Shown here: positions 23,040 to 64,000 of the stretch, in pieces | How the letters are laid out: each line of letters opens with the position of its first letter | How positions within the stretch are numbered: position 1 is the stretch's first letter | From: Irpex lacteus | Lineage: Eukaryota; Basidiomycota; Agaricomycetes; Polyporales; Irpicaceae | DNA length: 64,000 nucleotides | Assembly: GCA_001986395.2 (NCBI GenBank) | Contig: MQVO02000008.1 | Location: 1,116,001-1,180,000 of the forward strand | Direction: 5' to 3' | Translations under genes and position numbers: made by a program | Notes under the pieces: generated by a model | The model's database searches: none | What the model was told of the DNA's origin: nothing | The model's input: only the letters and a program-made list of their open reading frames with translations

Positions 23040-24796
23040 ATGGCATCTGTTGCGGAATTACAATTGCAGTTAGTCGCTTATCCAGCAGTCAATATCCTGC
23101 TGATTAATGGATATTTCTTAGGCTCATTGGCATATATATCACTGCTTCTTCCAACGGTAAGTGATATTCTCACTGTTCCTTGCTAGCAAACTCATATTCA
23201 TCCGTCCCAGTAATATTCATATGTGACAACATGACCATGTTAATACAAGAAGTCACCGTCATATGGCAAAGGAGATGGACCGCTATGACCTGGCTGTACG
23301 CATTCACACGCTACAGTACGGCTATTAATTGTATCATCTTCTTTGTTCCGGTGGACAATATTATAGTACGTCATCACAACAGGTTTAATCCATTTGACGA
23401 TACTGAATTTTTCCGCCTTCTTAGAGGTATGCTTACGACATTCAATACTTTTATGCTCAGAGCCTGATGGTCTTCAAAGCTGTCGGGCCGGTCAGTATAC
23501 AAGCGATGTGCTCTTTCTGACACAGTATATTTGCTTCGCTTGTAAGTACCACTCCACTTCCAGAGAATGACATGAAGGAATAACTCCCATTTTTCACGCC
23601 AGTGTTCTCTGCGATGCGAGTTTACGCGTTGCGTGATGGCAGATACCTCATAGCTGGGATTGTCTTCTTGTTAAACATCGTACCCTTTGCAACGAATCTG
23701 GTAAGCACTTTTTAGACGCAAACATAATCCCGAAGTAACATATGTCGATGGACAGTACAGCGTAGCGACCGTCACGGTGGTGGCAGATTTGGTCGTCTGT
23801 GAATCAGTGCCAAACATTCCACGAAGCGTCAGTATATCGTACGTGTTCCAATCTCTGAGTGTGATGTTGTCTAACACCTTATCTAATCTTCCAGACGTGA
23901 GTACGCTTTTTAAAAAAAGCCCCTCTCAAACTCTCAGACGGATTCAAACAGTATCGCTGGTCACACGAATAGCTGTGATTATTGGTGATATTCTTGTGTT
24001 GGCGGTAACCTGGGTGAAAACAGCCGAATCGTACAAGGAAGCGCGACGGTTGAACCTCAGAGCTCCTCTGGTAACAATGTTATTCCGCGATGGTGAGCTT
24101 ATCTGGTCAAGATCTGAGCGCTATGACGCTAACCCGCCCCCAGGAACAATTTACTTTATGTATGTCTTCATAGTAACGCAGCCCATTCGCAAAATAATCC
24201 TGGACATCCTATATAGCATTCTTCTGGTGATCAATGTATTTGAAGTGATTGGTGCCAACGTTGTAAGTTTCTCGAAACTCTCTTGTTGTGTCAGCGAAGT
24301 TGAGGACTTATGGTTTACTTTACACAGCCATCTTTATTTACGTTGGACATCTTTGTTGCTTTTCTGCAAAAGTAAGCACTCCTTATGATGTCCAATAAGC
24401 TGATCTGCATGATTGTACTTCCAGCTTTCCACCAATTATCGTCTGTCACTTCATACTCAATTTGCGGCAGATCGACGCTCCAGGTAGCTCTTGCATATCT
24501 GGAAGTCAATCAGCAAGTCTTCGTTTCGTTGGTAACATGGGACAGTCGTTGCAAATTGGAGGAGACGAAGTGGATGCCTTCGATGGATCACTCACACAAG
24601 CCGACTCCGATGAGCCTGTCGCTTGCGTTGTGGTTGACGGTGACAATGCAGTCTGCAGTGCCACTCAAGATGATGCAGAGCCCCAGATGGTGAGTGACAC
24701 TCGCTGGCTGGTAATTCATTGCCAGTGGTATGGAGCTGACATCTTGTGTCTTCTAACGTTTAAATCATGACTGTTCAGGAATTGGTCGAAGCGTAG
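23040..24796 (+). CDS. DUF6533 seven-helix membrane protein, group B copy 1
   Basis: Starts MASVAELQLQ, equivalent to the M(S/T)SxxELQxE start of the other group B copies. Exon 2 is 23122-23156. DUF6533 core: VIFICDNMTMLIQEVTVIWQRRWTAMTWLY (in two parts, residues ~24-53). The later exons encode FSAMRVYALRDGRYLIAGIVF, VSLVTRIAVIIGDILVLAVTW, GTIYFM, ILLVINVFEVIGANV, IIVCHFILNLRQID and the tail motif LRFVGNMGQSLQIGG. Frame is kept only if two 2-nt exons are used: AG at 23425-23426 and AC at 23895-23896. The final exon after an intron at ~24689 adds ELVEA before the stop. Probable 7-helix surface protein with an acidic cytoplasmic tail; function unknown. It is the first group B gene inside the interval bounded by the two MFS genes. 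Confidence 0.88.
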
Positions 24797-25484
24797 CAGC
24801 TGGCTAGTCAGGCATCAAGATTAAAAGAAACAGTAAGTACTTCGATGATCTTGTTTAACTCTCTGGCAACCTTTTCTGTGTAGGTCCGCACAACTGAGGT
24901 GCCGCTCTAGTTGCGAAGATGCATCTTATGATGATAGTCCTGATAAACCTGGTCTGGTAACCTTCGAGAAATCATCTGTGATAGATCCGCCACGGCGCGG
25001 ACCACGTACAAATTGTGTTCATCGTTCACCAATGCGAATTTATCTAAAACTGAAGTCACACTAGTATTTACGCGAATATGCAGGTGTGTTAATGGTTTAC
25101 ATAACAAGGCATCATGACATGGGCTGTCTATATCGTAGGACATTCATGAGTTGCTGTCTCGGTATCAAGGTGAGGTTCTACAATTGTTCCTCGGTACATA
25201 CATGTTCCTTGACTCCATCTCGCTTTGATATAGGCTTCTTCGAGAATGAAGATTTGATCTTTTACGTGTGTCTGCTAATGTCCATACCATTTCCTCTCGC
25301 AGTCCGGGCATAGATCTCTCCGATATCAAGACGTGGATCATCTGCAGGTGCGACCAAAGCTCCTCATGATACTGATGAGCATAAAGAGGTATAAGACACT
25401 TCCACTGGAATGATACGTTTTTGGTACAACTTTTCACACATCCCCTCGCAACTGTCAATTGTCGGCTGGACTATTTGTACGCAA
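24797..25484. other. Intergenic spacer between group B copies
   Basis: No gene recognised in 688 bp. It should contain the 3' end of copy 1 and the promoter of copy 2. Confidence 0.4.
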
Positions 25485-27218
25485 ATGTCACGATCTTCTA
25501 TTACGGAGCTCGAACACGAGTAAGTGTCCTTGAACTATGTGACCACGCAATATTCATCAATATGTCCGAGTCAGGCTCATAGCAGATTATGCCTCCCGAG
25601 CCGCTAATGGCAAGTCTCAGGTTCATCGTGGTACTCACCTACTAGGATACTGACTCCAAGTTTGCTTCGCCATGAATGACCAAGCAGCTTTATTTCTATA
25701 CGAGTGCGTGATTACTCTAACACAAGAGGTCAATGTGATATGGCACCGAAAATGGACCGCGACGACCTGGCTATATGCGTTCACTCGTTATGTTACGGTT
25801 CTGGACCAAACTATTCTCCTACTTCCGGTCAGGAATTTCGCGGTGAGCCGAGCTTACCTGATTCTATATCTTATAAACTGACGGTTGCACAGAGGTATGA
25901 TTTTGTGCAGGATTTGTGGCCTCGCATTGAGAGATTCGAACACTAAATATCATAACAGCTGCGCAAGCCTGTCGTACGCCGATGCCGCTTGCGAGTTAAT
26001 ACGATATCTATGCATTGCGTGTGAGTGCTCTACTGCATCACTAATCTGCTGTCCGCTTTGGAGATAAATGACTGACTTTGGAATCCTCGATGCAGGGTTC
26101 TCCGCGCTGCGAATTTATGCACTCTTAGACGGTAAATACGTCATAGCCGGTATAGCCCTCGCGTTGAACCTCGTACCATTTGCTACCAATCTCGTGAGTA
26201 CTGCAATAATAAGGAGATGATGCTGAGACATAAATAAGGTTCAAGTTCAATTTTTCAACCAGTATCCTCTTGGAAGACGTTGAGATATGCACGGCAATTC
26301 CTGGAATATCACCAAGTCTCCTCATGTCGTAAGTGTACTAGTGCACGCCGTGAATCAATCAATCCTTTAATCAATCAATTTACTAGATGTATGTACACAT
26401 TTACAAAGGACTGAATGTGTGGTACTCAATCTTCGACAGTGTCACTATTCACCCGAATTTCTGTCGTGATCGGAGATGCCCTGGTCTTAGCCGTCACATG
26501 GATAAAAACAGCTCGAGGATACCGAGATGCACACCGACTGAACATCAAGGCTCCTCTCGCAACGATTCTCTTTCGTGACGGTGAGATGAACGAATCAGTA
26601 TCCCGTTCGTTCTCGGTATACTGATAATAAACTTTACAGGAACGATTTACTTTCTGTAAGTCTCCTTAGTAATCTCTGGCGTATTGTTGCTTAGCCATCA
26701 CATCACACTACCCGTCGTTCCATCAGTATCCTTCTGGCTATCAACGTCCTCGAAGTAATCGAGCTTAACAATGTGTGTTTCTCGTTAACAGTGCATTCCA
26801 AGTAGCAGCTGATTACTGTGCTTGCCTTACCATAGCCAACTCTGCTTACTTTAGATCTCGCGGGGCCCTTCTATAACATGTCGGTGACTCCTCATACATC
26901 CTCACCAACGAATCGACTAAATACACCTGTAGTTTACCGCAGATCATAATCGGCCGCTTCATCCTCAACCTGCGACAGATCGAACCTGGAGAGAACTCTC
27001 AGACCTCTGGAAACCAGTCGCGCAGCCTTCGCTTCGTGGGAAACATAGGCCAGTCACTACAATTCGGCGGAGGGAGTGTGGACAGAGACGAAGAAGCTTC
27101 TGTAATTGAAGCTACTTACACGGAAGCCGATGCAGATATCTCCCCAGAGATAGCCATTGGGGCAACTGAATGTGAGAAGGGGAATGAAGACCTCTGTACA
27201 CACAATCACATCGATTGA
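25485..27218 (+). CDS. DUF6533 seven-helix membrane protein, group B copy 2
   Basis: Starts MSRSSITELEHE. Exon 2 ends at a GC donor (AATG|GCAAGT near 25610) demanded by phase. The DUF6533 core reads ALFLYECVITLTQEVNVIW then RKWTATTWLYAFTRYVTVLD. Further exons give CASLSYADAACELIRYLC, FSALRIYALLDGKYVIAGIAL, LSLFTRISVVIGDALVLAVTW, GTIYFL, ILLAINVLEVIELNN, PFYNM, then IGRFILNLRQIEP and LRFVGNIGQSLQFGG before an acidic tail ending THNHID. The Cys normally preceding RFILNLRQ is Gly here. Two 2-nt exons are needed: AG 25893-25894 and AT 26387-26388. It converges with the minus-strand MFS gene, 298 bp apart. Function unknown. Confidence 0.88.
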
Positions 27219-34653: not shown

Positions 34654-36455
34654 ATGTCCACTAGTGCACTACTGGAACAAGAGTGCGTCTACTAAAACAC
34701 TTCATGACATGTCATTGATCAAACTACACAGGCTTATAGGCAGTTATATCACCAGATCCGCCACAGGTGAGTCATACACCTAAACGCATCTCTCCGATGA
34801 CGAAAGTATCATTCTTTTCCAGGGCTGTTCTTCTACGAATGCATAATTACTCTATCCCAAGAAGTTGACGTCGTATGGAGACGAAAGTGGACTGCTATCA
34901 CCTGGCTGTATGCTCTCACACGCTACTGCGAGGTTTTGGATCAGATAGTCACTTTCTTACCCGTTGGGAATATCACAGTGAGTCGAGCTCAGTAGAATAT
35001 GTCACCGAGTAGAATATAGGTTCATCCTTGTATTGCATAGAGGTATGCTTCAGCTAGATCGAGTCATCATAACTCAACATTGAGAGCTGAGCATTTATTA
35101 TCTCAACAGCTGCAAGGCCTTGATACACACCGACGCCGCTCTTCACTTGGTACAACCTCTATGCTACGGATGTGAGTGTACAAATGTATCACGAGCTTTC
35201 CCGCGACTCGAGATTGACCGGAAGATGTACAACTCAGGGTTTTCCGCACTGCGAGTTTATGCGCTGTTCGGCGACAAGCGGCTTGTGGCTGCCATAGTCT
35301 TCTTATTGAATCTTGTTCCTTTCGCCACAAATATGGTGAGTGTCAGAATGCTTGGCAGATGATAATGATACATATACCAGGCGCCAAGTTCAACTATACA
35401 CACACTGTTATAACAGCAAACGAGGTGTGCATCGCAGTGCCGACAGAGTCAAGCGGACTCCACCTAACGTACGTCCCAGGGTTCATGCTCGTAGATTGAT
35501 GGTATTAAATAAACAGCACCATTCTTATAGACGTAGGTATTACACGACTAGGAAGAAATGGCCCCTTGACTTACTTACGATCTCATTCAGTATCATTATT
35601 GACCCGCATGGCTGTGATAATGAGCGATGTGCTAGTTTTAGCCGTCACATGGACAAAGACAGCTCAAGCGTATGGCGAAGCGAAGCGGTTGAAAATCAAG
35701 GCTCCACTCGCAAGGATGCTCCTTCGAGACGGTGCGCTACATCGATCGTGTGATTCCCTGCACTCACTGATGTTAATCCTCATAGGAACAATATACTTCG
35801 TGTATGACAGTGCGATTTAATAGGCTGGAAGATCGTGATTTACTGACGCTTGAGTAGTATCCTTCTAGTTTCCAACGTGCTTGAAGTCATGGACTCAAAT
35901 ATTGTAAGCCTCTTGTCGAACTACTTCGATAAAGAGAATCAATGACTGACACTTCATCTAGCCAGTAATGGAGTACTTATCCGTCATCGAGCCCTTTTTT
36001 GACATGTAAACATCTCCTCTGATAACTATGTTATCTAACTCACAGAATATGCCTTGCAGCTTGCCGCAAATAATTGTATGCCGCTTCATCCTCAATTTGC
36101 GGCAACTCGAGCCTGCGGAAACCTCCTGGATATCTGACAGCAAGTCTCATAGCCTTCACTTTGTGGGAAATATGGGGCAGTCGCTGCATACTGGCGGAAC
36201 GGACGAGGACGAAGAAAACGGAGTCGATGAGATCGAAGTTGTTCCCGCGCGTGCCCGTTTCTCGTCCGAAAATACCACACCAACCGAAGCTGTGGAGGTA
36301 AATGGTAGGCGCGTCTACGAGCTTTGGACACAACAAGTGAGTTTATTTCTATCTCCCAGCAATCATTGCATCAACTCTGTTTTCGCGTTGTCACTTGCGT
36401 ATGGACTCTGACGTTTCATTCCACTCAACAGGGCCCGACACATGTTGACGTCTGA
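34654..36455 (+). CDS. DUF6533 seven-helix membrane protein, group B copy 3
   Basis: Starts MSTSALLEQE. Intron 2 uses a normal GT donor here (GCCACAG|GTGAGT). Core: LFFYECIITLSQEVDVVW then RKWTAITWLYALTRYCEVLD. Later exons encode CKALIHTDAALHLVQPLC, FSALRVYALFGDKRLVAAIVF, LSLLTRMAVIMSDVLVLAVTW, GTIYFV, ILLVSNVLEVMDSNI, IEPFFDI, IIVCRFILNLRQLEP and LHFVGNMGQSLHTGG. A last short exon after an intron at ~36338 gives GPTHVDV before the stop at 36455. Frame again requires the 2-nt exons AG (35041-35042) and AC (35531-35532). Acidic cytoplasmic tail. All splice sites look intact. Function unknown. Confidence 0.88.
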
Positions 36456-38080: not shown

Positions 38081-39806
38081 ATGTCTTCTGTTGCACAGCT
38101 TCAACAAGAGTACGTCGTTCAAGCCGCACCATGATTTCTTGTTCGATTTTGCTGACCAATACAGGCTGATAGCCACTTACGTTACGCGAGCCGCACCAGG
38201 TAAGTCGCAGGCCCGTCTCCGTTTATCAGTTGTCTCACCCTTTTTTCGCCAGTTTTGTTTCTCTACGAGTATATCACTACTCTTTCTGAGGAGGTGGACG
38301 TCATCTGGTGCAGGAAATGGACCGCGACAACCTGGTTGTACGCATTCACGTGCTACAGCACGGTTCTGGATCAGATCGTCTTCCTCATCCCTGACTGGAA
38401 CTTTGTGGTGCTTAAATTGTATCTCGATGTCATTTGACTCGAAGCTGACGTTTCGTTTTCTTTAGAGGTACGCTTGCGCTGGCGATGAGCTCTTTTGCAT
38501 CAGCACACTCAGGAAATGCTATCACAACAGCTGTCAGGTCGAGATACGCGCCAATAACGTTCTCCAATTAATTAGATACCTATGTTTTTCATGTAAGCCT
38601 TATTTCATTCTGTCCTGAATATGCTCAACAGCTGATATACAATCAAATTCTCTCCGTAGGGTTCTCGGCGTTGCGAGTCTATGCCTTATCGGATGGAAGA
38701 TTTCTCATGGCTGGTGTTGTCCTCCTTCTGAACGTCGTTCCATTTGCTACGAATATGGTGAGCATCATAATGACGGGGTGAAGACACTGAGACATATAAC
38801 GTTCCAAGTTCGACTTTATCACCAGTGTCGTGGTTGAAGATTCAGACATCTGCACGGCGGTATCAACAATGCCGCATAGCCTCCTTCTTTCGTACGTCCT
38901 ACACATCATTCCCATCACCACGGTGCACCTGGCAAATGACTTGCTCTTGCAGACGTACGTGAATACGTTTGCGGTAGCTGTCTCCGGACTCACATTTGGA
39001 CTCGAACAATGGTAGTGTCGCTGGTCACCCGTATTGCAGTAATAGTAGGCGATCTGCTAGTTCTAGCTGTTACCTGGACAAGGACAGCTCAAGCATACCG
39101 AGAGGCGCAACGACTGCACATCAACGCCCCTCTTGTTGTCATGCTATTACGTGACGGTAAGGCTATCACGCTGGTCATAATATTGTCTCCTTATTGCTGA
39201 TGATGATATTTATAGGGACCATTTATTTCACGTACGTCTTTGCCCAAAAACCTCTCGTATTCACACCAATGAACATGTCATTGCTCACTAGTATCCTTTT
39301 AATCCTCAATATACTCCAAGTACTTGGGGTCAACGTCGTACGTCTCTGTCCTTACCTTATCACGCCAGCGGCGACTAATATTGAAATCACATCCATTCAG
39401 TCAGCTCTATCCGCCATATATATCATACAGCCGTTCTTCGACATGTCAGTACTCGTCCTTCCAATATCCATATGCACTTATCGAATATCACCGCAGCTTA
39501 CCATCTATCATCGTATGCCGCTTCATCCTCAACCTGCGCCAGATCGAGCCTCGAGAAGTCTCCTGGGTATCTGGCAATGATTCACGCAGCATACGCTTTG
39601 TTGGGAATATAGGCCAGTCGCTGCAGTTTGGTGAAGTGGCTCATGAAGACGAGGATGAAGATGTCGAAGAACATAAATACGAACTTGATGAGTATCTTGC
39701 TCAGGCCGATGGCTCGCACGGGATCGTTGTTAGGGAAGGTGAAGACGTGGCAAAGGCGAATGAAGAGTGCCTCAGACGACACTATAATACCGAGCTTGGC
39801 GGGTGA
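38081..39806 (+). CDS. DUF6533 seven-helix membrane protein, group B copy 4
   Basis: Starts MSSVAQLQQE. Core: VLFLYEYITTLSEEVDVIW then RKWTATTWLYAFTCYSTVLD. Following exons encode CQVEIRANNVLQLIRYLC, FSALRVYALSDGRFLMAGVVL, LSLVTRIAVIVGDLLVLAVTW, GTIYFT, ILLILNILQVLGVNV, IIQPFFDM, IIVCRFILNLRQIEP and IRFVGNIGQSLQFG, then an acidic tail ending RRHYNTELGG. The Arg normally in the TRY motif of the core is Cys-preceded here (FTCY), the only such change seen. Required 2-nt exons: AG 38466-38467, AC 38953-38954. Intron 2 has a GT donor (CACCAG|GTAAGT). Unlike copies 1, 3, 6, 7 and 8 I see no extra terminal exon. Function unknown. Confidence 0.87.
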
Positions 39807-48837: not shown

Positions 48838-50562
48838 ATAAATGTCGAGAGCTGTCATTTCAGCGGAGAGAAGTCACATCCATCACGGTACGAAAAGACA
48901 TGCATGCGCTCACCAGCAAACCACAGAGCTTCGCGCTGATGCACAGGCCAATACAACAGAAACGTACCAAAAGCTTCTCCATTACCTATGACCTAAGATA
49001 TCCGGGATCCACTGCACAGCTCTCTATGGACACATCCGAGACAGAGGCCGTATGAGTCCTAGATCATATCTTCAGCTCGGTTGCTCAGAACGAGATGAGT
49101 ACGACGTACCATTTTACTGAAGCCCTCAGTTGCGACCACTGGCATCTATCCATGGTGCTGAACATTCTCCGCGCCCATCTGACTCGATGCGAACCACGTC
49201 CGCACTTCTCAAATAAGTGCAGTACTTAGTGGTGGTCGGCGGAAGAGGTATACGTGGGAACATCAGGCTTGAAACGTGGGAGCGCTTGTGATCTCAGATC
49301 TAGGCGGCCTCCCTGGCGGCAGGCTTGCTGAGCAACTTCAACTTGAATGCTTGCATCCTCGAAGATTGCTAGTATCTTTCATGTTTGTTTTTTGTTGTTA
49401 CCGGTATAATCACTGGATGCTTACGCTTATGAAAAACCGTCGCCGAGCTACCTCCTCGAGTCCCTTTAGCGGTCGACACGGAGAACGTCTGCCAGTAGTT
49501 CTTAGCTGCTATCACGACCACTGGCATGCTTGATAGTATAACGCGGAGCAAAATGCAAGGGTATGATTTTGCGATTAAGCATCAGTGAGTACCGCGACCA
49601 TCACGTTGTTCAACTCGCTCACTGGGTACTTCTTTATCTGCAGTGCATGCCGATACAACTGAACTCGTCCCGTGTTAGTTACGCGACGTCTGATTCGACC
49701 GACGACGACTTGGAGGATCTGTTATCCGAAAGGCCCACTAATTGGACGCGATGGATTTCATCGTGTTCTGCTTCATCGTGGACGGATCCATGTCGTTCTA
49801 TCTTGGTTCTGTTGGTGCTTCAGCCAACTCGACCGGTCCTATGATCCGGCTTTGGTACAGAAGGAGCTATTCGCGACGATGCCATTGTTCAGCATGTTCA
49901 AAGTAGGCAGGATACGTGGATAGGTGATGCGTTGTATCACGCTTCTAATCACATTCATCTTTACTAACAAGACGACCAAGATGCTCCGTTATCCATGCCA
50001 GGCAAGTGATCAGTCATCGGATTCCACCATGCATGGATGCCACTCTTATTGAAGCTTGAAGTTATGGTAGTTTATTCGACTATGGTAAGGTGCATGCGAT
50101 CATGATGGTTCCCCACATCATTGCTAAGATACCATATTTGAAAGATCTGTTCGGTTGAAGCTGAGCGATCCTGGGTTGCGGGATCGCCTCGCAATCAACG
50201 GTAGTTTCTACTGGAGTTCGTAAGTTGGAACGTGTTCTTCACTCAACTCCGCGTTGACGCAGTTTTCCTCACAGTAAAATGTCTCAGTTGACTTTTTACT
50301 GGTACGTAGTACCTTATTTCCCTCGTTTCTCAGATGGATCTACTCAGGCCGAAGAAGTGCATAATCCTCCGGTGCAGTCGAAGCTTCTCGTGACAGGAGC
50401 AAGTGCAGGTGTAGTACTAGTATAAGATACACCAGCGCGAGGTTTTGGATCCCACCCATAAGTTTCCTATTCTCTCCTCAGGCTCTCGCTTTTAGACACT
50501 GAAACCGAGCTACCAGTGGTGAAATACCTCGCACACCAGCACACCTCAATACACAGTATCAG
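48838..50562 (+). repeat. Partial upstream unit of the 6.4-kb tandem duplication
   Basis: This segment, just before group B copy 7, is homologous to 55390-56992 and 61750-63376, the segments just before copies 8 and 9. Shared landmarks include CAGAAACGTACCAAAA, AGTACGACGTACCAT, and an exon-like stretch at 50161-50219 followed by GTAAGT that encodes LSDPGLRDRLAINGSFYWSS. The left boundary is approximate. It indicates that the duplication included about 1.6 kb upstream of each gene, covering the promoter. Confidence 0.7.
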
Positions 50563-52412
50563 ATGTCTTCCACTGCGGAGCTACAGCAAGAGTACGTAAT
50601 CCAATACCCAATAATTCCGTGTTACTTATCCGAATGCACAGGCTCATAGGCACATACATTAATCGATCCGCCAACGGCAAGTCCTAGGTCCATCGTAAGT
50701 TTTGACTTGCTAAGTGCTGACTTTCCCGGGGCGGCTTTACTACCAGGTTTGTTTCTGTTTGATTGCCTGATTACTCTGTCCCAAGAGGTGGATGCCGTAT
50801 GGAGTCGGAAATGGACTGCAACTACCTGCCTATATGCGCTCACGCGCTATGGCACAGTTATGGACCAGATACTTCTCCTTATTCCGCCCTGGAACTTTGT
50901 AGTGAGTCACCGAGTTCAACAGGTTCTGTTTCAAATATGTTCCAACATCCGCAATGTCGTAGAGGTGCGCTTGCATTTTCGCCGAATGCTGATACCAGAG
51001 TTTTGAACACTGAGGACAGTTGCAGCTGTGCAGCTATTGTGTACATTAATGCAGCTGTCGAGTTACTACAGTTATTTTGTCTCGCATGTGAGTGTTCTCT
51101 TGCGCTATGAATATATCGTGAACGGGCTAACCGTCACGCCCTCGACACAGGGTTCTCTGCACTCCGAGTCCACGCAATATTGGACGGCAAATACTTCATG
51201 GCCGGTATGGTCCTCTTGTTGGATCTTGTACCCTTTGCTACAAATACAGTGAGTCTCGAAATATACGCAAGATGGTAACGGAACATATTTCAAGGTTCCA
51301 GTTCAACGCTGCAACCAGTGTTGTTTCGATCGATGCTGTAAAGTGCGCAGCTGTTCCGGGGATGCCGAATAATCTCCTCCTATCGTAGGTTTAGCTCGCA
51401 GCGATCAGGAGTCAAACTACTTTTTATGAATTATTTCGTTCACAGATGTGCGTGCGCTGTTCGAACGCAGCGATAACTAGAAACATACTCAAGCTTTGAC
51501 AGTATCCCTCATCAGTCGAGTCTCTGTGATTATCGGAGATGTACTGGTCCTGGTAGTTACTTGGACGAAAACAGCTCAAGCATACCGGGAAGCACGCCAA
51601 CTGAATATTAGGGCACCTCTTGTGACGACACTCTTTCGTGACGGTGCGATGAATGAACCTTAAATCTTCCTTTACTAATGGTGAATTCTACAGGGACAAT
51701 TTACTTCCTGTGCGTCCTCCTACCTTGTGCACGTGTATTGTTGAAGAACCGTCATATAATGCCTTCAATTTTGTCAGTCTACTTCTGGTCATCAATATCC
51801 TTGAAGTGATTCAGGAGAACATAGTAAGTCTGGTCACTGAGTATTATAAACATAACAGACAGCTATATCCATCTCTTCCCAGCCGGTTCTGCTCACAATG
51901 AATTTTATATCACCCTTCTTCGACATGTTTGTAATTGTTCTGACACCAGTATCAGATCGCTCACAAAATACGTCTGTAGCTTTCCTCCCATGATCGTTTG
52001 TCACTTCATCCTCAGTCTGCGGCAAATCGAACCTGCGGGAAGTTCCTGGGAATACAGCAACCAGTCTCATAGCCTGCGCTTCATTGGGAACATGGGCCAG
52101 TCACTGCAATTCGGTGGAGAGGGTGCGGACGAAGAAGAAGAGGACATTGCCGGAGTCGAAGGTTCTGTTGCTGAAGTCAATATCTCACCCGAGGATCCCA
52201 CCTGGATGACTGGCATTGAAGCGGATGAGACTCTCGGGCATAGGTACGGTATTGACCTTGAGGGGCAGTGAGTGAGTGTATTTCTTCATCGTCTCAAGCC
52301 GTGACGTGTGTCAAACTTAGAGCTGACATAATTTCTTATTTTCCTCATCAGGGTACCAGTGTACTGGAAGTATCAGTACGGCGAGTCCCCTAGCACTTCG
52401 CCGTTTAGTTGA
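50563..52412 (+). CDS. DUF6533 seven-helix membrane protein, group B copy 7
   Basis: Starts MSSTAELQQE. Intron 2 starts with GC (CAACG|GCAAGT near 50683); reading through would hit TAG four codons later, so it must be removed. Core: GLFLFDCLITLSQEVDAVW then RKWTATTCLYALTRYGTVMD. Further exons: CAAIVYINAAVELLQLFC, FSALRVHAILDGKYFMAGMVL, LSLISRVSVIIGDVLVLVVTW, GTIYFL, LLLVINILEVIQENI, ISPFFDM, MIVCHFILSLRQIEP, LRFIGNMGQSLQFGG. The last intron starts at GTGAGT overlapping an in-frame TGA; splicing adds VPVYWKYQYGESPSTSPFS with the stop at 52410-52412. 2-nt exons: AG 50963-50964, AT 51446-51447. First complete gene of the tandem array. Confidence 0.88.
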
Positions 52413-55400
52413 GCTAGCTATCGATGTCAACATCGAAGAGCTTCTTGGGAGAACACTACGCGTACCTGCCACTCTCTCTTTCATCTCTAACTTTTGAACT
52501 GGATCGAACGAATATACTATTTATACGTTTATGGCTGTGTATTTATCTATCGTTGGACTGTCTCCTAACTTAAAGTCATTGAGAATGCGCTAATTTATAT
52601 GGAGCTCGAACTGCATCCGACCGCTGTGGCTCATACTAGTGGCTGGGAGCTGAGAAAAAGTAGAGAAACAAGAAGAACGGCTTCGAGGCTTGAGTTGGCC
52701 AGCACTTAACAATGGCGTAATGCAAACGGAGATCTCAAAGTTCAAGGCAAAACAGCATTTTCGGAGAGCAGGTACGTCGATGCGTGGGTGCTGGTGTAAG
52801 GCCTTGACTGGACGTTTGACAGTTATCCGTCGCCAGGTACCATGCGAGATCGGCCTGTGCGCTTTCAAGACGAAGTGAGTCGTCCATGCGCCAGCAGTCC
52901 CAGTTTATTCCATTGAGAGTTCCCAGATTCAAGCATACAGACAAGCCAAAAGTATTCATTCTTCGACAATCAGACATTATTCGCGTCGTTACGCAGACTT
53001 CAGTGGATCTAAAAGCCCCGCAGGTTCAGAATCGTGCGACGCAAGCCAGGATCGGCGGCGTACTTGATAAGGAATATCATGCACGGAGCCATCAGGCTGG
53101 GAACCATGAAGATACGGTTATTCACCATTGAGCAGGCTGCCTAGATCAAAGTGTCAGTAAGACGAACGTGAATGATGAACAAGATCAGGAATATGCGCTT
53201 GCACTGTGAACCTGTCCTCAAGCACCCTTGTCTCCCTCTTCTTGGCTATCTCGGTGTGCATGACAGGAGTGAATCAGGTCTGTATTTTGTCAGAGAGATG
53301 GTTTAGCTCGTCAACGTCGTCTACATGACCTGGCCCGGGTGCATGACGAAAGCATCTTCGTCCGCAATGTGATTGTGATCCGCATACAGATATCAAAATG
53401 CAATCGACTTTCAGTGCACTTCGAGCCACCGATTCGTCGTAGACTGTGATGGAAGAGAGGTCGAAGGGAGGGTGGAGAGGAGGACGTGAAAGGCTGGAAG
53501 ACAACACTACAGATCAGCGAGAATGCACAAAAAAACTACATGCTTACGCACCTTGACTGCTTGTGTGCCATATCATGCTCATGGAAACTACCTGTTCCAT
53601 CGATGTTCGCTCCCTACCTCTGGGTTTTCGTTGGCGACCGTCACACATGTTATCCATACTAGTCCCAAATAGACGACAATGGATCTACGTGGGGTTCGAG
53701 GCGTTACGCGTTCACCCTCGTGTGTTTCCAATCTTCGAGATTGATCTACGACATACTACTTCAACAAATGAATCTCTCGATTGGAGCAGTGACAGACGGC
53801 AGTAAGAACTCACGTTCAATGGCACAGTAGGTTTCATCAGCACTGTGCTCCGTGCGCGTTGTATGAAACCCAGTAATTTTGTATCGTAGGCTCGTACAGG
53901 TCAATTATTGGTGCCGTGAAAGGAGACCGTCAGGTAGTGATGGGATGTGGCGTGGAATAGTAAAGGGGACTTCCCAGCGCTGCAGTGCTAGCACCCACGT
54001 TTCGTCACGGTCGGTATCCGTTACTCTTCACGAACGTGACAACAGGCGCCATCGTGGATCTCCCAGAAGCACCCCTGAACAACCACATGTGCAGGGAAAT
54101 GTCGAAGTGTCGGTGTGCGTTCGCGTTCTTGAAACGTGCTTTCTACGTTCGTGAGTCTGCGGTGGTGCAGAAGCCGGGTTTTCCCACCATAGCCATGGGT
54201 CCCCAAACATACATCAGCGTGCAGCACGACTACTGGCGTCCAGCATCAGTTTTCGCCGTGGGATCCATTATATCCGTACGCAGCATATAGTGGGTACACA
54301 AAGGCTGCAGGCCTAGATCCGTGTAGGGCAAGGAGGATCGATGGCGCCGTTGAAAGAAGTGTCGTCTGCAGCACCATTGGGCAAAAATGGCCGTAATCGC
54401 TGAGAGAGCAGAATATGCGCCTTTCTAAAACACATAGTTTTGATCAGTAAGTCGGCAGGCTAAAAGAGTTACAGAGTAAGATAGCAAGGCACCCTTACAG
54501 GTAGTAAATCTGTCCACCGGACCCCTCGTCGCAGCCTCTTTGACTTCTCGCTTTAGCCCCCATCACGAACAATGAGCGCAGCGTGATATTACTGGGAGAA
54601 TAATGCCTATGGTTTAGGAGAAGGAAATCACGTCAGTACGCATTAGCTTAATGCATCGTGAGAGCATGCTCTGTTCCCAATATTGACCCGGTCCGCGCAC
54701 GAACATCGACTCCCGATTGTTGTGGGGCGCTTTGAGCCACATGGCAATTGGACATCGATTGGGTGGATGAGGTTGGAATACAGGCGACAACGCAGCTTGT
54801 AAGGCAAGAGGAGATCGCGTCAGCTGGAACGCACAAAGGACGCTCTAAGCTACGTACGCACCTGTATCGTCCGTATGCATCTTACGTGCATCAACTAATC
54901 GTTGCGCCGATAATTCTGGTGTAATCCGACGAAAACGTCATGGCGCAGCTCGCCAACTCTCATTATACCACGGAGTGGATCGAAGTTGCCGAAAGTGAAA
55001 GTATTATACGCAATAGGTCCACTCTCTTGCCACTTCGTCTGCAGACCTGGTCCATATTCTATCGTTTCACTGAACGTTACATGTACACCCCGTGAGATTA
55101 ATAACCGGCGGTGTAAAACAATCCTATATACTTACCTTGCTCGGTCTTTGTCCACGTCCGAGTCCTCTTCAGCCCTTGCGTCTTCCGGGTTGTGAGTGTC
55201 CGTTGCCAATGACGAAGTGGCTATACTCTTCAGTGATATAATCGCGCCAGTCGTACGCGTGTGTCATGGACGAAAGTGAGGAACAAGATCCATCCCGCAG
55301 GTGTGAAGGGTGGCTTGCGAGAAAGATGCACCGGCGAGCATTGAGCGAGCAGACTGTCCCCACACGGGACGAAACAAGGAGTGAATGTCGACAACCGCCA

Positions 55401-56992
55401 TTCAGAGGAGAGAAATCACGTTGATTGGGGTACGATAGGACGTGGTGAGTACATTCGCCAATAGACCATTAAAGCTCCATATCGGTGCATAAGCTGATAT
55501 ATCAGAAACGTACCAAAACATTACTATGCTGGCTATGACCTAAAATACCTACTGCATGGCTCTCCGTGGACGCATCCGAGGGGTTAACAGAGGCCCTCTC
55601 AGTTCCTGGATCATATTAGCTTTAGCTCTGTCGCTCAGAACAAAATAAGTACGACGTACCATGTTTACTCCAGGCCTCCCGCTACTACTAGCATCTATCT
55701 ATTATGTTTAATCTTCTCCGCGTCCAAGTGATATCATGAGAGTTCCGTCTGCAGTTCTCGAGCAAGGACACTGGTAGTGGTCGAAGAGGACGGAGTTATA
55801 CGTGGGAACATCAGGCTGTGCAACGTGGGGGCGCTTGGAATCTGAGATCTGAGCGACCTGTTGAACGCTCAGCGTGGCGTACGAGTCGAACCTGGTGGCA
55901 TCTTGAACTTGAACTTTATAGATCAAGCACTGCTCGAAGGTTGCTCGGACCTTGTACGTATAATGTTCGACGTTGATATTATGGATATTGGCCTCGGACG
56001 GGCACGCTTCTCTCGGTGAGCCACCGGCTCAAGAAGTCCTTGAGCGAGGTGCCGCCCGAGTTCGCCGAGCATGTAGCTGGCATCCAAACCATCGTTTGTT
56101 ACACCACAAGGGGATGGCTATGTGATAAATCAACAGTGAGCGCTGAGACCATCTTGCTGAGCTTTGCTAACTGTCCGCTTCTTTCGCACAGATCAATGCA
56201 GTTGAGAGCACAAAGTTGTTCAACATACTTCAACTAACTTACGAGAGTAACGAGACGTATGATTCATGCGAACCACAGCGGCTTCGAAGAACTGTGATCT
56301 CATCGATCTACTTGCCATGCGCGGCGGACTGAATCGTTTTTTGTGGAACTGTGAGCTGGTTTATAGTTGGAGGCCGATTATAATGGATACGCCACGGTAG
56401 GTACGTTTTCCATTCTCCCAATCACCCCGCTCTTAACTAACAAGTCGATCAAGATTCCCGTAAGCCCTGCTCAGCCTATGATATATCGGAAGATTCTTCC
56501 AAAGACGATGCTGGGCTGCCGCTCAAGCTTCAATTCGTAATGGCTTACGGGCATGTGAATACGTGCGTTAGGTCCCTGACATCACCAAGATACTTGTATC
56601 CAAAACATGCGTTTTGTCGCAGTTGAACGATCCCGGGATGCGGGACCGCCTTGCAACTAACGGTAGTTTCTATGGAAGTTCGTAAGTTTGAACGTGTGCT
56701 TCACTCCACTCCGCGTTCACAGTAAACCGTCTCAGTTGACTTTTATTGGCACACGGTAGTCCATTTTCCCCAGGCCTCAGATCGATATACCCAGGCTGAA
56801 GAAATGCATACTCCTCGGGTGCAACCGAATGTTTCTATCATAGTAATGAGTACAGGTTGGAATATAAGGTACTCCCGCCTCAGGTGTCGAATTCCATTTA
56901 CAAGGCTCTCGCTCTCCCTTCTCGCCACCGTTAGCTCTCAAACCCTCGAATCAAACTACGGGAATACCTTGTACACCTTGACACTGGTTCAG
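52413..56992. other. Spacer of unit 1, unidentified gene relics
   Basis: 4.6 kb without a gene I can name. Minus-strand stretches at about 53130-53050 (MVNNRIFMVPSLMAPC after a good intron acceptor with branch site CTGAC) and 53420-53280 resemble a degraded membrane-protein gene, possibly DUF6534-like, but stops interrupt it. Plus-strand fragments at 56188-56290 (VESTKLFNILQLTYES) and 56623-56681 (LNDPGMRDRLATNGSFYGSS, followed by GTAAGT) look like exons of another unidentified gene. Every fragment recurs in the next unit. Confidence 0.35.
54487..54684. repeat. Near-invariant 198-bp island, unit 1
   Basis: Identical to 60865-61061 except for one single-base indel (AATAATGCC versus AATAATGC), whereas the flanking parts of the duplicated units differ at many positions and by indels. 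No gene is recognised in it. On the minus strand it contains an open stretch ending GGQIYYL followed by GTAAGG. Confidence 0.85.
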
Positions 56993-58885
56993 ATGTCTTC
57001 CATCGCGGAGCTTCAGCTAGAGTGCGTTTCTCATAGTCCCTGATACATATCCAAGTTCGTGCGATGTTCACTCAAAATGCTTAGGCTCATAGGAATCTAC
57101 GTCAATCTATCCGCCAATGGCAAGTTTCAGGTACATGTTTCCGACTTGCTAAGTGCTGACTTTCTCGGGGCGGCCTCATCACCAGTTTTGTTCTTGTTTG
57201 ATTGCCTGATTACTCTGTCCCAAGAAGTGGATGCCATATGGAGTCGGAAGTGGACTGCAACGACCTGGCTGTATATGCTCACGCGCTACGTCACAGTTAT
57301 GGATCAGATAGTTTTCCTTACTCCGCCCTGGAACTTTGTAGTGAGTTCGCGAGTTCAATAAGTTCTGTCATAGACATGGTTTAATATCAGAAAACAAATC
57401 TTGTAGAGGTACGCTTGCACGTTCGCCACTTCATGATATTTTGGGACTGAACTTGGAGTACTTTGCCAGCTGTGTAATCGGCGAATATATCATTGAAGCT
57501 CTCCAATTGCTACAATATCTATCCCTTGCATGTGAGAGTTCTCCTGCTTTACTGATAGTATATCTGGAACCGGCTGACATTCGGGCTCTCAACGCAGGGT
57601 TCTCTGCACTGCGAGTCTACGCACTATTGGACGGCAAATATGTTATGGCTGGTATAGTCCTCTTGTTAAATCTTGTACCCTTCGGTACAAATATAGTGAG
57701 TTCCACGACAACAGAAAGAAAAAAACAATAACTAGAGACATAAAGGGGATCAAGTTCAATGTTGTGACTAGTGTTATAACCGATGACGCTGTGACATGCA
57801 CAGGCGTCCCCGGAGTGTCAAATAATCTCGTCCTCTCGTACGTGTAGCAAGTGATCACCATAGATTAGGTTAAGTATTTCTAACTAGCCATCTTCTCTAC
57901 AGATGTATGTTGCCAGCTACAAATTAACAATCATCAACGTTATACTCGAACTTGACAGTGTCGCTGTTCACTCGAATCTCTGTGATTATTGGGGACGTGC
58001 TTGTTTTGGCAGTTACCTGGGCAAAGTCAGCTCAAGCATATCGAGAAGCACGCCAACTGAACATCAGCGCTCCTCTTGCGACAGTACTCTTTCGCGATGG
58101 TACGACGAATGGACCAAGTTTCCCATTAACTCTTAATTTGCTGATCGGGAACTTCACAGGAACGATATACTTCCTGTACGCCGTGTTTCTAGTTAGTAAG
58201 CAGGTGTCTTGTTGACACGTCATCATATTATCCTTTTAACCACGTCAGTCTTCTTCTGGTCGTTAATATACTCGAGGTGCTTGAGCAAAACATAGTAAGT
58301 CTAGTCACTGAGTATTGTAAACATAGCTGATAGCTATATCCACATTCACCCAGCCAGTTCTGTTCACAATAAATATCATAGAGCCGTTCTTTAACATGTT
58401 TGTATTCCTTCTGATCTCCGAATCCTCACTCACAAAATACGTCTGCAGCTTGCCGCCAATGATTGTATGCCACTTCATCCGCAGTCTGCGGCATATCGAA
58501 CCTGCGGGAAGGTCCTGGGAATCTGGCAACCAGTCTCGTAGCCTGCGCTTTGTCGGGAATATGGGCCAGTCGCTGCAATTCGGTGGAGAGAGTGCGGACG
58601 AAGAAGAGGAAAACATCGTCGGAATCGAAGGTACTGATGCTGAAATCAATGGGTCGCCCGAGGCTGCCACCAGGACAGCTGATATTGAGGAGGCGGATGA
58701 AGACGTCAGGCACAGGTACGGTATTGACCTTGAGGGGCAGTGAGTGAGTGTATTTCTTCATCGTCCCAAGCTGTGACGTTGTGTCAAACTTAGAGCTGAC
58801 ATAATTTCTCACTTTCCTCATCAGGGTACCAGTTTACTGGAAGTATGAGTACGGCGAGTCCCCTAGCACTTCGCCGTTTGATTGA
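56993..58885 (+). CDS. DUF6533 seven-helix membrane protein, group B copy 8
   Basis: The best-resolved group B model: 14 exons, 56993-57021, 57085-57119, 57186-57340, 57407-57408, 57470-57531, 57598-57695, 57755-57837, 57903-57904, 57959-58099, 58160-58175, 58249-58294, 58354-58397, 58449-58739 and 58825-58885; 1065 nt, 354 aa. Sequence marks: MSSIAELQLE, VLFLFDCLITLSQEVDAIW, RKWTATTWLYMLTRYVTVMD, FSALRVYALLDGKYVMAGIVL, LSLFTRISVIIGDVLVLAVTW, LLVVNILEVLEQNI, IIEPFFNM, MIVCHFIRSLRHIEP, LRFVGNMGQSLQFGG. The 57120 donor is GC; that 66-nt intron is in frame and stop-free, so retention would insert 22 residues. Two 2-nt exons are essential for the frame. The last intron's GTGAGT overlaps a TGA; splicing yields a C-terminus ending SPSTSPFD. 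Function unknown. Confidence 0.9.
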
Positions 58886-61800
58886 GCTAGCTATCGATGA
58901 CAACATCGAAGAGCTTCTTGGAAGAACACTACGCGTACCTGCCACTCTGTCTTTCATCTCTGGCTTTTGAAATAGATGGAACGAGTATACTATTTACACG
59001 TTTACGGCTGTGTATTTATCTATCGTTGGAGTGTCTCTTAACTTATAGTCATTGAGAATGTGCTAGTTTATGTTGGTCTCGAGCTGCATTCAACCGTTGT
59101 GGCTCGTAATAGTGGCTGGGAGTTGAGAAAAAAGTACAGAGCAACGCGAAGAACGGCTTCAAGGTCTGAGTCGGCCAGCACTTAACGATTGCGTAGTGCA
59201 AATGGAGATCTCAAAGTTCAAGGCAAAAACGGCATCTTCGGGGAGCATGTACGTCGATGAGTGGGTGCTCGTGTACGGCCTTGAGGCATATTGGACTATC
59301 GGTCGTCATCAGATGGCATGTGAGGTCGGCTTGTGCGCCTTCAAGTTTAGATTGTAGTTCTAGGTCTTTCCGTCGATGGTCTTGAAATATTAGAATATAG
59401 ACGCGGTATACATGTGCATTCATCACCAATAAGATGTTCTTCGCATCATTAAGCAGACTTGAGTGGATATAAAGCGGCGTATGTGCAGGTCAAGACCGGC
59501 GGCGTAAGTACTTGGAGAGGAATGTCGCCCTACAGTACACCAGGTAGGAGAGATACGGTTCTTCATGGGTACGACGAAATATATGCGCCTTCATTGAGCA
59601 GGCTCCCTAGATAATAGTGTTGGTGAGACGAACGTGAATGGTGAATAAGATAGAGAGGCCGCATTTCCACTGTGAACCTGTCCTCAAGCGCCGCCCTTGT
59701 CTCCCTCTTCTTGGCTATCTCGGTGGGCATGACATGATTGAATCAGGCCTGTATTTTCTCAGAGAGATGATTTAGATAGTCAACGTCGTCTACATGACGT
59801 GGGCTGGGTGCATGACGAAAGCATCTTCGTGCCAATATGACTGTGATCCGCATACAGATATCAAATTGCAATCGGCTTTCAGTGCACTTCGAGCCACCGA
59901 GGTCGAGGGAGGATGAAGAGGACGAAGTGAAAGGCTAAACGAGAACGCTACAGGTCAGCGAGAGCGCACAAGAAAAACCACATACTGACGCACCTTGACT
60001 GCTTGTGTGCCGTATCATGTTCATGGAAACTACCTGTTACATCGATGCTCGCTCCCTACCTCTGTTTTCTGTTGGCGACCGTCACACATGTTATCCATAC
60101 CAGTCCCAAATAGACGACAATGGATATACGTGGGGTTCGAGACGTTACGCATTCACTCTCGTGTGTTTCTAGTCTTCGAGATTGATCCACGACATACTCC
60201 TTCAACAGATGAATCTCTCGATGGTAGTGACAGACGGTGGTAAGAACTCACATCAACTCTCATATTAGGCTTCGCCAGCACTGGTCTATGTGCGCGTTGT
60301 ACAAAACTCGGTGGTTTTGTATCGTAGACCCGCTCGGGTAAATGTTGATGGGATGGTGACGGGGAAAAGTAAAGGGGGTATCCCAGCGCTGCAGGTTCAA
60401 GTTCACGGTGGGGTATCCGTTATGCTTCGCGAACGCGATATCATATGCCATTGTGGATCTCCCAGAAGCACCCTGAACGGCCACATGCGCAGCAAAGTGT
60501 CGCCATGCACTCGGTGTGCGTTTGTGTCCTTGGAACGTGCCTTCTACGCTCGTCGGTCCGCAGGTAGTGCAGATGACAGGTCTTCCCATCATATCCAAGG
60601 GTCCCCAAACATGCATCAGCGTGCAGCCCCGCTACTGGCGTGCCGCGTCTGGCATCGGGTTTTCACTGTCGGGTCTATTATTTCTGTACGCAGAACATAG
60701 TGGGTATACAAAGGCTGCAAGCCTAGATCCGTGTAGCGCAAGGAAGATCGATGGCGCCGTTGAAAGGAGTCTCGTCTACAGAACCGCTGGGCAAAGTATG
60801 GCGGTAATCGAGGAGTGTTAATCAGCAAGTCGATTGGATAAGGAAGCCAAGGCGTAGGACGGTGAGGCACCCTTACAGGTAGTAAATCTGTCCACCGGAC
60901 CCCTCGTCGCAGCCTCTTTGACTTCTCGCTTTAGCCCCCATCACGAACAATGAGCGCAGCGTGATATTACTGGGAGAATAATGCTATGGTTTAGGAGAAG
61001 GAAATCACGTCAGTACGCATTAGCTTAATGCATCGTGAGAGCATGCTCTGTTCCCAATATTTTCCCGGTCCGCGCACGAACATTGACTCCCGATCGCTGT
61101 GGGGCACTTCGAGCTACATGGCAATTGGACATCGATTGTCGAGGTGGATGAGGTTGTAATACAGGCGACAACGCAGTTTGTAAGGCAAGAGGAGATCGCG
61201 TCAGTGGGTACGCACAAAAGACGCTCTCAATCACATACTTACGCACCTGGATCGTCCGTATTCATCCTTCGCGCATCAACTACTCGTCACTCCGATGATT
61301 CTGGTGTAATCCGACGACAGCGTCATGTCGCAGCTCGCCAACTCTCATCATACCAGGGAGCGGATGCGAAGTTGCCGAAGTGAGAGTAGGTCTACTCCTG
61401 TGTCACTTCGTCCTCAAACGTGATCCCTCTTCCATCGTCTCATTGACTTTGTATGTGCACTATGTGAGATTAACAACCGATGTAAAACGATCCTATGTAT
61501 ATACCTACCTTGCTCAGGCTTTCTCTACGTCCGAGTCCACTTTTAACCTTGCCTCTTCTGCTTGTAAGTGTCCGTTGCAAATGACGAAGTGGCTATACTC
61601 TTCAGTAATATAATCGCGCCAGTCGTATGTGTCATGGACGAAAGTGAGGAACAAGATCCTTTCCGCAAGTGTGAAGGGTGACTTGCGAGAGAGATCCACC
61701 GGCGAGCACTGAGCGAGCAGACTATTCCAATACGGGATAAAAATATAGAGTAGATATCGAGAGCCGCCATTCGGAGGAGGTAAATTACGGTTATTGGTGT

Positions 61801-63376
61801 ACGATAGGACATGGTGAGTACATTCGCCAATAGACCACCAGAGCTCATACCAATGCATAAGCTGATATATCAGAAACGTACCAAAACATTACTGCACTGG
61901 ATATCACCTATAATACCTACTGCATGGCTCTCCTTGTACGCATCCGAGGGGTTAACAGAGGCTCTCTCGGTTCCTAGATCATACTACCTTCAAGTTTAGC
62001 TCTGTCGCTCAGAACAAAATAAGTACGACGTACCATGGCCTCCCGCTACTACTAGCATCTATCTTTTGTGTTTAATCTTCTCCGCATCCAAGTGATATCA
62101 TGAGAGTTCCGTCTGCAGTTCTCAGGCAAGGACACTGGTGGTCGAAGAGGACGGAGCTGTACGTGAGAACATCAGGTTGACATCAGGCTGTGAAACGTGG
62201 CGGCGCTCGCAATCTGAGATCTGAGCGACCTGTTGAGCGCTCAGCGTGGCGTACGAGTCGAACCTGGCGGCATCTTGAACTTGAACTTCATAGATCAAGC
62301 ACTGCTCGAAGGTTGCTCGAACCTTGTACGTATAATGTTCGACGTTGATATTATGGATATTGGCCTCGCACGATTACGCTTCACGAGATGTCCTCGGTGA
62401 GCCACTGGCTCGAGAAGGCCTTTAGCGAGGTGCCGTCCGAGTTCGCCAAGTATGTACCTGGCATCCGAACCATTGCTTGAAACACCACAAGGGGATGGCT
62501 ATGTGATAAATCAACAGTGAGTGTTGCGACCATCTTGTTGAGCTTTGCTAACTGTCTGCTTCTTGCGCGCGGGTCAATGCAGTTGAGAGCACAAGGTTGT
62601 TCGACATACTTCAACTAACTTACGAGAGTAGCGAAACGTATCATGCGAACCACGGCGATTTCGAGGAACTGTGATTAGTAGATCCACTTCGCGCGCGCGG
62701 CGGACTAAGTCGTTCGTCGCGGAACTGTGGGCAGGTTTATAGTAGGGGGTTGAATAAAATGGACATGTGGGTACGTTTTGCATTCTTCAAGTTCTAATCA
62801 CTTTTGCTCTTAACTAACAAGTCAATCAAGACTCCCGTAAGTCTTGCTCAGCCTATGATATATCGGAAGATTCATCCAAAGACGATGCTGGGATTGGGTC
62901 GCTCAAGCTTCAATTCGTAACGGCTCACGGGCATGTGAATACGTGCGTTAGTAGGTTCCCTGACGTAACCAAGATACTTGTATCCAAAACATGTGTTTTG
63001 TCGAACTTGAACGATCCTGCGATGCGGGACCGCCTCGCAACCAACAGTAGTTTTTATGGAAGTTCGTAAGTTTGAACGTGTTCTTCACTCCACTCCGCGT
63101 TCACAGTAAACCGTCTCAGTTGATTTTTACTGGCACACGGTAGTCCATTTCCCCCAGGCCTCAGATGGATCTACCCAGGCTGAAGAAATGCATAATCCTC
63201 GGGTGCTACCGAATGTTTCCATCATAGTAATGAGTACAGGTTGTAATATAATGTACTCCCGCACCAGATATCTAATGCCACCCACAAGGCTCTCGCTCTC
63301 CCTTCTCGTCACCGTTAGCCCTGAAACCCTCGAATCAAACTACCGGAATACCTTGTACACTTTGAGACTAGTTCAG
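58886..63376. other. Spacer of unit 2, unidentified gene relics
   Basis: Co-linear with 52413-56992 and carries the same unidentified fragments, for example the exon-like LNDPAMRDRLATNSSFYGSS at 63007-63065. No gene called. A minus-strand open frame at 60616-60260 (containing RHFAAHVAVQGASGRSTMAY) is longer than its counterpart in unit 1 but is not recognised. Confidence 0.35.
60865..61061. repeat. Near-invariant 197-bp island, unit 2
   Basis: Partner of 54487-54684, one base shorter; otherwise identical while its flanks have diverged. Confidence 0.85.
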
Positions 63377-64000
63377 ATGTCTTCAATTGCGGAGCTTCAG
63401 CTAGAGTGCGTTTCTCATAGTCCCTGATACATATTCAAGTTCGTGCGGTGTTCACTCAAAATGCTTAGGCTCGTAGGAATTTACGTCAATCTATCCGCCA
63501 ACGGCAAGTCTCTGGCTCATCGTTTCGACTTGCTAAGTGCTGACTTTCCTGGGGCGGCTTCACCACCAGTCTTGTTTTTGTTCGATTGCCTGATTACTCT
63601 GTCACAAGAAGTGGATGCCATATGGAGTCGGAAATGGACTGCGACGACCTGGCTATATGCGCTCACACGCTATGGCACAGTCTTGTATCAAATAGTCCTG
63701 CTTACCCCAGCCTGGAACTTTGTAGTAAGTCACCGAGTTCAACAAATTCTGTCCTAGACATAGTTTACTGAAAGAATAACTTGTAGAGGTACGCTTGCAC
63801 GTCGGCCGCATCATGATATCGTGAACCTGAACTTCGAGTACTGTGCCAGCTGCGCAGTCGGTGATTATATTAGTATCGCTCTCCAATTGTTACAATATCT
63901 ATGCCTTGCATGTGAGCGTTCTCCTGCTCTACTAATAGTATATCTAGAACCAGCTGAAATTCGGGCTCTCAACGTGACAGGGTTCTCTGCTCTGCGAGTC
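63377..64000 (+). CDS. DUF6533 group B copy 9, cut by window end
   Basis: Starts MSSIAELQLE like copy 8. Exon 2 encodes LVGIYVNLSANG and ends at a GC donor; the 66-nt intron 2 is stop-free and in frame as in copy 8. Core: VLFLFDCLITLSQEVDAIW, RKWTATTWLYALTRYGTVLY. The first 2-nt exon is AG at 63787-63788, followed by CASCAVGDYISIALQLLQYLC (two parts) and the beginning of the FSALRV exon at the window edge. Nothing visible is broken. The remaining half of the gene lies outside the window. Confidence 0.88.

Follow-up and report, generated by a model that had tools for sequence, protein, structure and literature searches.

How are the exons of a DUF6533 gene joined in frame when the recognisable ones fall two bases short of each other? 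The question is raised by a stretch of 64,000 nucleotides (nt) from the fungus Irpex lacteus (assembly GCA_001986395.2, contig MQVO02000008.1; C18:1116001-1180000 in our numbering), referred to here as the window. The window contains nine gene copies of the family DUF6533 (PF20151). In these copies exon 3 ends in phase 0, and the exon that can be recognised after it is two bases short, as our gene models confirm. The first-pass annotation of the window, made from the letters alone, proposed that an exon of exactly 2 nt supplies the missing bases and that each gene contains a second such exon further downstream. Two conserved 2-nt exons per gene is also the reading favoured by our analysis of the genomic sequence. 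We conclude with high confidence that DUF6533 membrane-protein genes carry two coding 2-nt exons, each located between two short introns of ordinary appearance. As sequence elements they are real, and it is very likely that they are exons.

All 17 proposed sites are present in the window at the positions listed in Table 1. The first site has the form YAG|AG|GT in 9/9 copies, and the second YAG|(AC, AT or GC)|GT in 8/8, with the dinucleotides that had been predicted. The extended donor GTRYGC, which had been claimed for every first site, is literally present in seven of the nine copies, the others having GTATGA (copy 2) and GTATAT (copy 6). In an alignment of the nine copies the string AGAGGT at the first site is conspicuous amid poorly alignable intron sequence. 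The first 2-nt exon would open the codon that directly precedes a conserved Cys, giving bases 1 and 2 of that codon. The second would straddle a codon boundary ahead of the L-S-L-x-T-R motif, closing one codon with its first base and opening another with its second.

Gene models were built with our own splice-aware dynamic-programming alignment of a protein profile to DNA, which allows GT or GC donors, AG acceptors and introns of 42–180 nt. When copy 8 was the sole query and nothing was masked, both 2-nt exons were placed in copies 1–4 and 6–8, and the first was placed in copy 5. In a masked run, in which residues touched by the 2-nt exons scored zero, both exons were still called in copies 1–4 and 6–8 and in copy 9 followed past the window (locus L067), and the first, not the second, was called in copy 5. 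Models of 13 exons reaching a stop codon were obtained for seven copies (1–4 and 6–8). These share the exon lengths 29, 35, 155, 2, 62, 98, 83, 2, 141, 16, 46 and 44 nt, with the single exception of copy 3, which has 80 instead of 83 nt. The 16-nt exon, which covers the TIYF region (58160–58175 in copy 8), is conserved in 7/7 of these models. The model of copy 8 is 1008 nt long including the stop codon; the length of 1065 nt, or 355 codons, given previously could not be reproduced. Its 335-residue product matches PF20151 with 44.8 bits, above the curated cut-off of 24.1, and thus belongs to the family. There is no ATG at the homologous start of copies 2 (25491) and 5 (42044), and beyond the second site of copy 5 (42931–43700) the match to the family is lost.

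The 2-nt exons extend well beyond the window. The surveyed genome (44.3 Mb in 317 contigs) contains at least 150 places that match the PF20151 profile. We examined 90 loci in addition to the window. Five of them lacked a core match and were dropped (L019, L037, L038, L071 and L086), and the remainder yielded 107 core matches, with copy 9 counted twice. Each of these rows was aligned with three profiles, representing the window type, a second type, and a more distant third type. The threshold for a well-modelled row was at least 1.5 per column, and 79 rows passed it (39, 19 and 21 by type); the other 28 were excluded from the counts. An exon was called at the first site in 73 of the 79 well-modelled loci, and it was exactly 2 nt long in each. 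The third profile stops short of the second site, so that counts for this site cover the first two types, where an exon was called in 53 of 58 loci and was again always 2 nt long. When the 14 loci that had supplied rows for building the profiles were left out, the numbers were 59/65 and 42/47. No exon of 12 nt or shorter was called at the 141 other introns of the 79 loci. The first-pass annotation had placed the exons in its group B paralogues; they do occur there, but that scope was too narrow: all three profile groups include loci with the first exon, and the second occurs in both groups whose profile reaches its site.

The coding content of the sites is regular. The codon completed at the first site is Ser (AGC or AGT) in 26/34 window-type and 17/19 second-type loci, and in the third type the dinucleotide is AT or AC in 19/20 loci, giving Ile or Thr. 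The codon that follows is Cys in 72 of the 73 loci. At the second site the dinucleotide follows the codon: its second base opens a codon for Leu, or sometimes for Val or another residue, and this base, the last before the donor, is C or T in 48/53 cases, as opposed to 128/275 at other donors, where G is the commonest base (104/275). The excess has a Fisher p of ~8e-10, a value not corrected for relatedness among the loci. Skipping of the first 2-nt exon results in a premature stop in 73/73 loci, at a median of 11 codons on, and skipping of the second does so in 53/53, which bears out the earlier statement that the frame is lost without them.

The dinucleotides persist where the surrounding introns do not. 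For the two introns flanking the first site, termed a and b in order of transcription, the similarity among window copies was 0.716 in real versus 0.715 in shuffled sequence (a) and 0.708 versus 0.701 (b) over 36 pairs, using a blunt measure that leaves out gaps. In some other group comparisons the real similarity exceeded the shuffled one by up to 0.036. The introns of the window copies are saturated, and the exons are kept among homologues while the introns diverge. Therefore, the 2-nt motif has been conserved and not merely copied. In four near-identical pairs of loci the introns differ, from one mismatch each up to 9-nt insertions or deletions, and the dinucleotide is the same; the pair L005/L006 retains it although the length of intron b differs by 9 nt. 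Inclusion of the 2-nt exons at both sites raised the alignment score over the best model without them by a median of 27.8, and by more than 10 in 65/79 loci. For the first site alone, the median gain was 15.8 over 73 loci, the smallest being 0.4.

One relative offers a natural case of intron loss. Locus L081, in which no exon was called at the first site, has kept intron a and lacks intron b, and CAG|AGC TGT runs continuously within one exon. The dinucleotide is thus fused in the genome to the next exon, apparently by a precise loss of intron b. No locus lacking intron a alone was seen among the 79, nor was clear loss of a flanking intron seen at the second site among the modelled loci.

The remaining uncalled loci mostly retain the motif. 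Besides L081, the first site was uncalled in L009, L015, L062 and L063 (minus strand) and in L083, which like L081 lies on the plus strand; an acceptor–dinucleotide–donor is visible by eye in these five. L083 has a GAG acceptor after the motif, L063 was called in another alignment run, and L009 contains an intact CAG|AG|GTATGC preceded by an exon 3 whose frame is unlike that of its relatives. The second site was uncalled in L068, L054, L049 and L055 (minus strand) and in copy 5. Visual inspection found CAG|AC|GT in copy 5, CAG|AT|GT in L054 and AAG|AG|GT in L055; L068 had received a 2-nt exon (TA) in an earlier run, and in L049 no 2-nt motif was seen by eye. Among eight very distant loci inspected by eye, six have an acceptor–dinucleotide–donor with a further acceptor and a codon for Cys after it (L002, L023, L026, L034, L080 and L084, with one AAG acceptor each in L080 and L034), and the motif does not fit in L011 and L031. 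Of a further 15 loci (L091–L105), two were called automatically at the first site, and the motif was recognised by eye in the remaining 13, with a GC donor in L097; the codon after the motif is not always Cys (for example in L098 and L099). These by-eye counts are weaker than the called ones, because acceptor–dinucleotide–donor motifs also arise by chance.

The closest public proteins come from Irpex lacteus and I. rosettiformis, and several of the former resemble orthologues of the loci described here. Seven I. lacteus proteins were compared, as protein only, with their apparent counterparts. The sequence of P0023, apparently the orthologue of copy 4, is the one expected if intron a is cut at exactly the TAG|AG acceptor and translation continues through an unspliced intron b. 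That acceptor would also account for P0011, provided that the donor used lies 15 nt beyond the predicted one. P0004 is consistent with a GC donor 2 nt downstream, with Val for Ser, and in P0001 Val also replaces Ser. P0007 and P0010 are joined elsewhere at the first site, and P0021 contains inserted residues for which we have no explanation. At the second site the residues of P0001, P0004, P0007 and P0010 match those that the 2-nt exon would give, with Ser for Thr in P0007. The public proteins may merely mirror gene callers unable to place 2-nt exons. Their first-site residues are too often misjoined to serve as evidence, and were not used beyond the seven pairs.

Intron-free open reading frames on short contigs were considered as evidence of transcripts. 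Eleven were aligned, two of which (P0082 and P0110) proved unclear or distant and were left out. The remaining nine (P0035 being partial) lie on contigs of up to 0.98–1.9 kb, and eight of them run unbroken into the conserved Cys, for which P0069 has Tyr. Their length suggests that they derive from spliced transcripts. Known only as intron-free sequences, they demonstrate no more than preservation of the frame at this point, and they were rejected as transcript evidence. P0082 (1103-nt contig) has V-C-F...H-S-C before the Cys. These residues would be expected from retention of an intron b that begins with GTRTGY, but the match is only suggestive.

The same stretches could in principle be removed as one long intron of about 110–130 nt with shifted sites, either from a GC donor two bases downstream or to an acceptor two bases upstream, which would leave the terminal AG in the exon and yield AGC directly. 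The public protein P0004 agrees with the downstream donor, and the residue at the first site of window-type loci is mostly Ser, as AG followed by C would also give. However, GC lies two bases downstream of the donor in only one of the nine window copies (copy 4), and the bases before the terminal AG vary (AA, AC, AT, GC, CC), with AC in 4/9. A search for single-intron joins in eight copies returned 7–42 in-frame joins per copy, of which only two had both a good donor and a good acceptor, and no GT/GC–AG join was common to more than three of the eight. Such an intron would be about twice the usual length and would contain a conserved acceptor–dinucleotide–donor for no reason, and L081, with intron a alone, continues from AG directly into CTGT. 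We regard the long intron as very improbable. Even harder to credit is zero-nucleotide recursive splicing, or a stwintron, in which the inner site would be a stepping stone and the whole stretch would be removed. Adjacent introns with an internal acceptor–donor pair do resemble a ratchet point, and in copies 7–9, where exon 3 ends in GTA, the removal of intron a would create the donor-like string GTAAGG. Stwintrons and recursively spliced introns are likewise excised in consecutive steps, but here two coding bases would remain instead of none, and complete removal would lose the frame, with the premature stops described above. The first-pass annotation offered stepwise splicing that leaves the dinucleotide behind as an alternative to the exons. 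We do not treat it as separate, because successive removal of adjacent introns produces the identical 2-nt exon.

The 2-nt exon might also be real but only one of several outcomes, some copies producing functional isoforms by retaining intron b or by using nearby donors that give larger exons. This conflicts with our explanation only in the matter of constitutive use. P0023 and P0011 would fit it, and a retained intron is open and in frame in some loci (intron a in 8/73, intron b in 4/73). Such open retention is nevertheless rare, intron lengths show no clear frame bias, and both proteins may reflect failures of gene callers at 2-nt exons. We consider isoforms of this kind unlikely.

Several observations weigh against the two coding 2-nt exons. 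In a control in which the intron region was shuffled with dinucleotides preserved (20 shuffles of each of 73 loci, 1460 in total), 209 shuffles (14%) produced a 2-nt exon, compared with 73/79 in real sequence, 480 gave some exon of up to 12 nt, and 96 equalled or exceeded the score of the real sequence. A single locus therefore proves little, and the case rests on repetition among paralogues that are not fully independent. The score gain is 10 or less in 14/79 loci, and just 4 of the 28 sub-threshold rows have a call at the first site. The alignment method admits GT/GC–AG splice sites only, and the exons are known here from genomic DNA alone. L057 has another possible donor 15 nt beyond the predicted one; its use would lengthen the exon to 17 nt, the form apparently used by the public counterpart P0011. 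The branch-site-like motif CTRAY is no commoner in the flanking introns (33/73 and 33/73 at the first site, 15/53 and 20/53 at the second) than in others (56/137); this comparison neither strengthens nor weakens the case.

A splicing mechanism for the 2-nt exons can be proposed. The flanking introns are ordinary in size (49–83 nt at the first site, 47–78 nt at the second) and would be bounded by GT, rarely GC, donors and AG acceptors. They look ordinary, and no special machinery need be assumed. Each would likely be recognised as a unit by intron definition and removed in turn, because two spliceosomes are unlikely to fit on either side of two nucleotides at once. The remaining splice site would be intact after the first cut. 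The dinucleotides would be included in the mRNA, presumably constitutively. Sequential removal by intron definition has also been considered for Arabidopsis APC11, which has a 1-nt exon (PMC4674806).

Exons smaller than these have precedents, and the earlier remark that 2-nt exons are at the physical limit of splicing was overstated, since validated 1-nt exons exist both in plants (PMC8831610) and in Fusarium (PMC12940212). The plant exons of APC11 and VPS55 (PMC4674806, PMC8831610) are also internal, lie between two introns, are needed for the frame, have long been conserved, were missed by annotation, and have relatives without the introns. They differ in being 1 nt long, with one exon per gene in few-copy genes, and in having been proven by reverse transcription polymerase chain reaction, whereas the DUF6533 exons are 2 nt long, two per gene, spread over dozens of diverged paralogues and known from the genes. 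The 1-nt exon of Fusarium CYP621A P450 genes, backed by 18 SRA reads, is described in the 2026 report as the first in a fungal gene (PMC12940212). There too an 'intron' of twice the normal length hides the exon, and the frame and an intronless relative reveal it; it is, however, a single read-confirmed exon in one orthologue group, compared with two 2-nt sites in dozens of diverged paralogues. Exons of the same size class, 2–5 bp, were reportedly described for Arabidopsis, Drosophila and human by Volfovsky et al. (2003), as cited in PMC12940212. A literature search on 2-nt exons found nothing related, and DUF6533 is barely mentioned in the literature searched. The new element would be the extension of the 1-nt-exon kind to 2 nt, with two exons per gene and in nearly the whole of a multigene family in this genome.

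If the exons are used as proposed, one genome holds dozens of genes that each depend on the correct splicing of at least one 2-nt exon, and in many cases of two, and this fungus handles near-zero exons as a matter of routine, not as a curiosity. The family would be a natural test bed for the splicing of such small exons: its many replicates vary in dinucleotide and in splice-site strength, so that the order in which adjacent introns are removed, and the rules for this, become directly testable. Automatic annotation of a large, little-studied family of fungal membrane proteins would be error-prone at the 2-nt exons, affecting domain boundaries, orthology and expression studies of DUF6533 genes. 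We lean slightly towards a broader view in which the first 2-nt exon is as old as DUF6533, general in mushroom genomes, and the most numerous ultra-small exon known, with the short Pfam domain and the misjoined gene models as side effects. The paired exons may then constitute an obligatory two-step splicing checkpoint, because skipping either exon leads to a premature stop; for the same reason they could have a regulatory role, but this is unsupported.

Table 1. Positions of DUF6533 gene copies, 2-nt exons and their flanking introns in the window
Feature	Positions	Strand	Details
Copy 1 gene, 13 exons	23040–24770	+	2-nt exons 23425–23426 (AG), 23895–23896 (AC)
Copy 2 gene, no ATG at homologous start	25491–27218	+	2-nt exons 25893–25894 (AG), 26387–26388 (AT)
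Copy 3 gene	34654–36411	+	2-nt exons 35041–35042 (AG), 35531–35532 (AC)
Copy 4 gene	38081–39806	+	2-nt exons 38466–38467 (AG), 38953–38954 (AC)
Copy 5, end approximate	42044–43000	+	42454–42455 (AG, called), 42930–42931 (AC, by eye)
Copy 6 gene	45208–46997	+	2-nt exons 45595–45596 (AG), 46077–46078 (GC)
Copy 7 gene	50563–52271	+	2-nt exons 50963–50964 (AG), 51446–51447 (AT)
Copy 8 gene, 13 exons	56993–58743	+	1008 nt, 335 amino acids
Copy 8 intron a, 66 nt	57341–57406	+	GTGAGT...TAG
Copy 8 first 2-nt exon, AG	57407–57408	+	would start Ser codon AG|C, before conserved Cys
Copy 8 intron b, 61 nt	57409–57469	+	GTACGC...CAG
Copy 8 intron preceding second 2-nt exon, 65 nt	57838–57902	+	GTACGT...CAG
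Copy 8 second 2-nt exon, AT	57903–57904	+	would end Ser TC|A and start Leu T|TG
Copy 8 intron following second 2-nt exon, 54 nt	57905–57958	+	GTATGT...CAG
Copy 9 first 2-nt exon, AG	63787–63788	+	gene extends past window (L067); AG and AT both called

Judging from a model of P0001, DUF6533 proteins may be seven-helix and GPCR (G-protein-coupled receptor)-like, and the Pfam domain is confined to a portion of exon 3. Loci of the third subfamily often have GTTGAG (L016, L027, L041, L043, L044, L051 and L087) or GTTAGG (L045) as the donor following the first 2-nt exon, compared with GTRNGY elsewhere. A search for relatives on viral contigs returned 206 pattern matches, none of them related. Near-identical DUF6533 loci occur on contigs C67 and C173, which suggests that the assembly contains both haplotypes. 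Within the window, copies 7, 8 and 9 sit in repeats spaced by about 6.4 kb (50141–63974), and, outside the two genes, parts of the repeats of copies 8 and 9 reach up to 95% identity.

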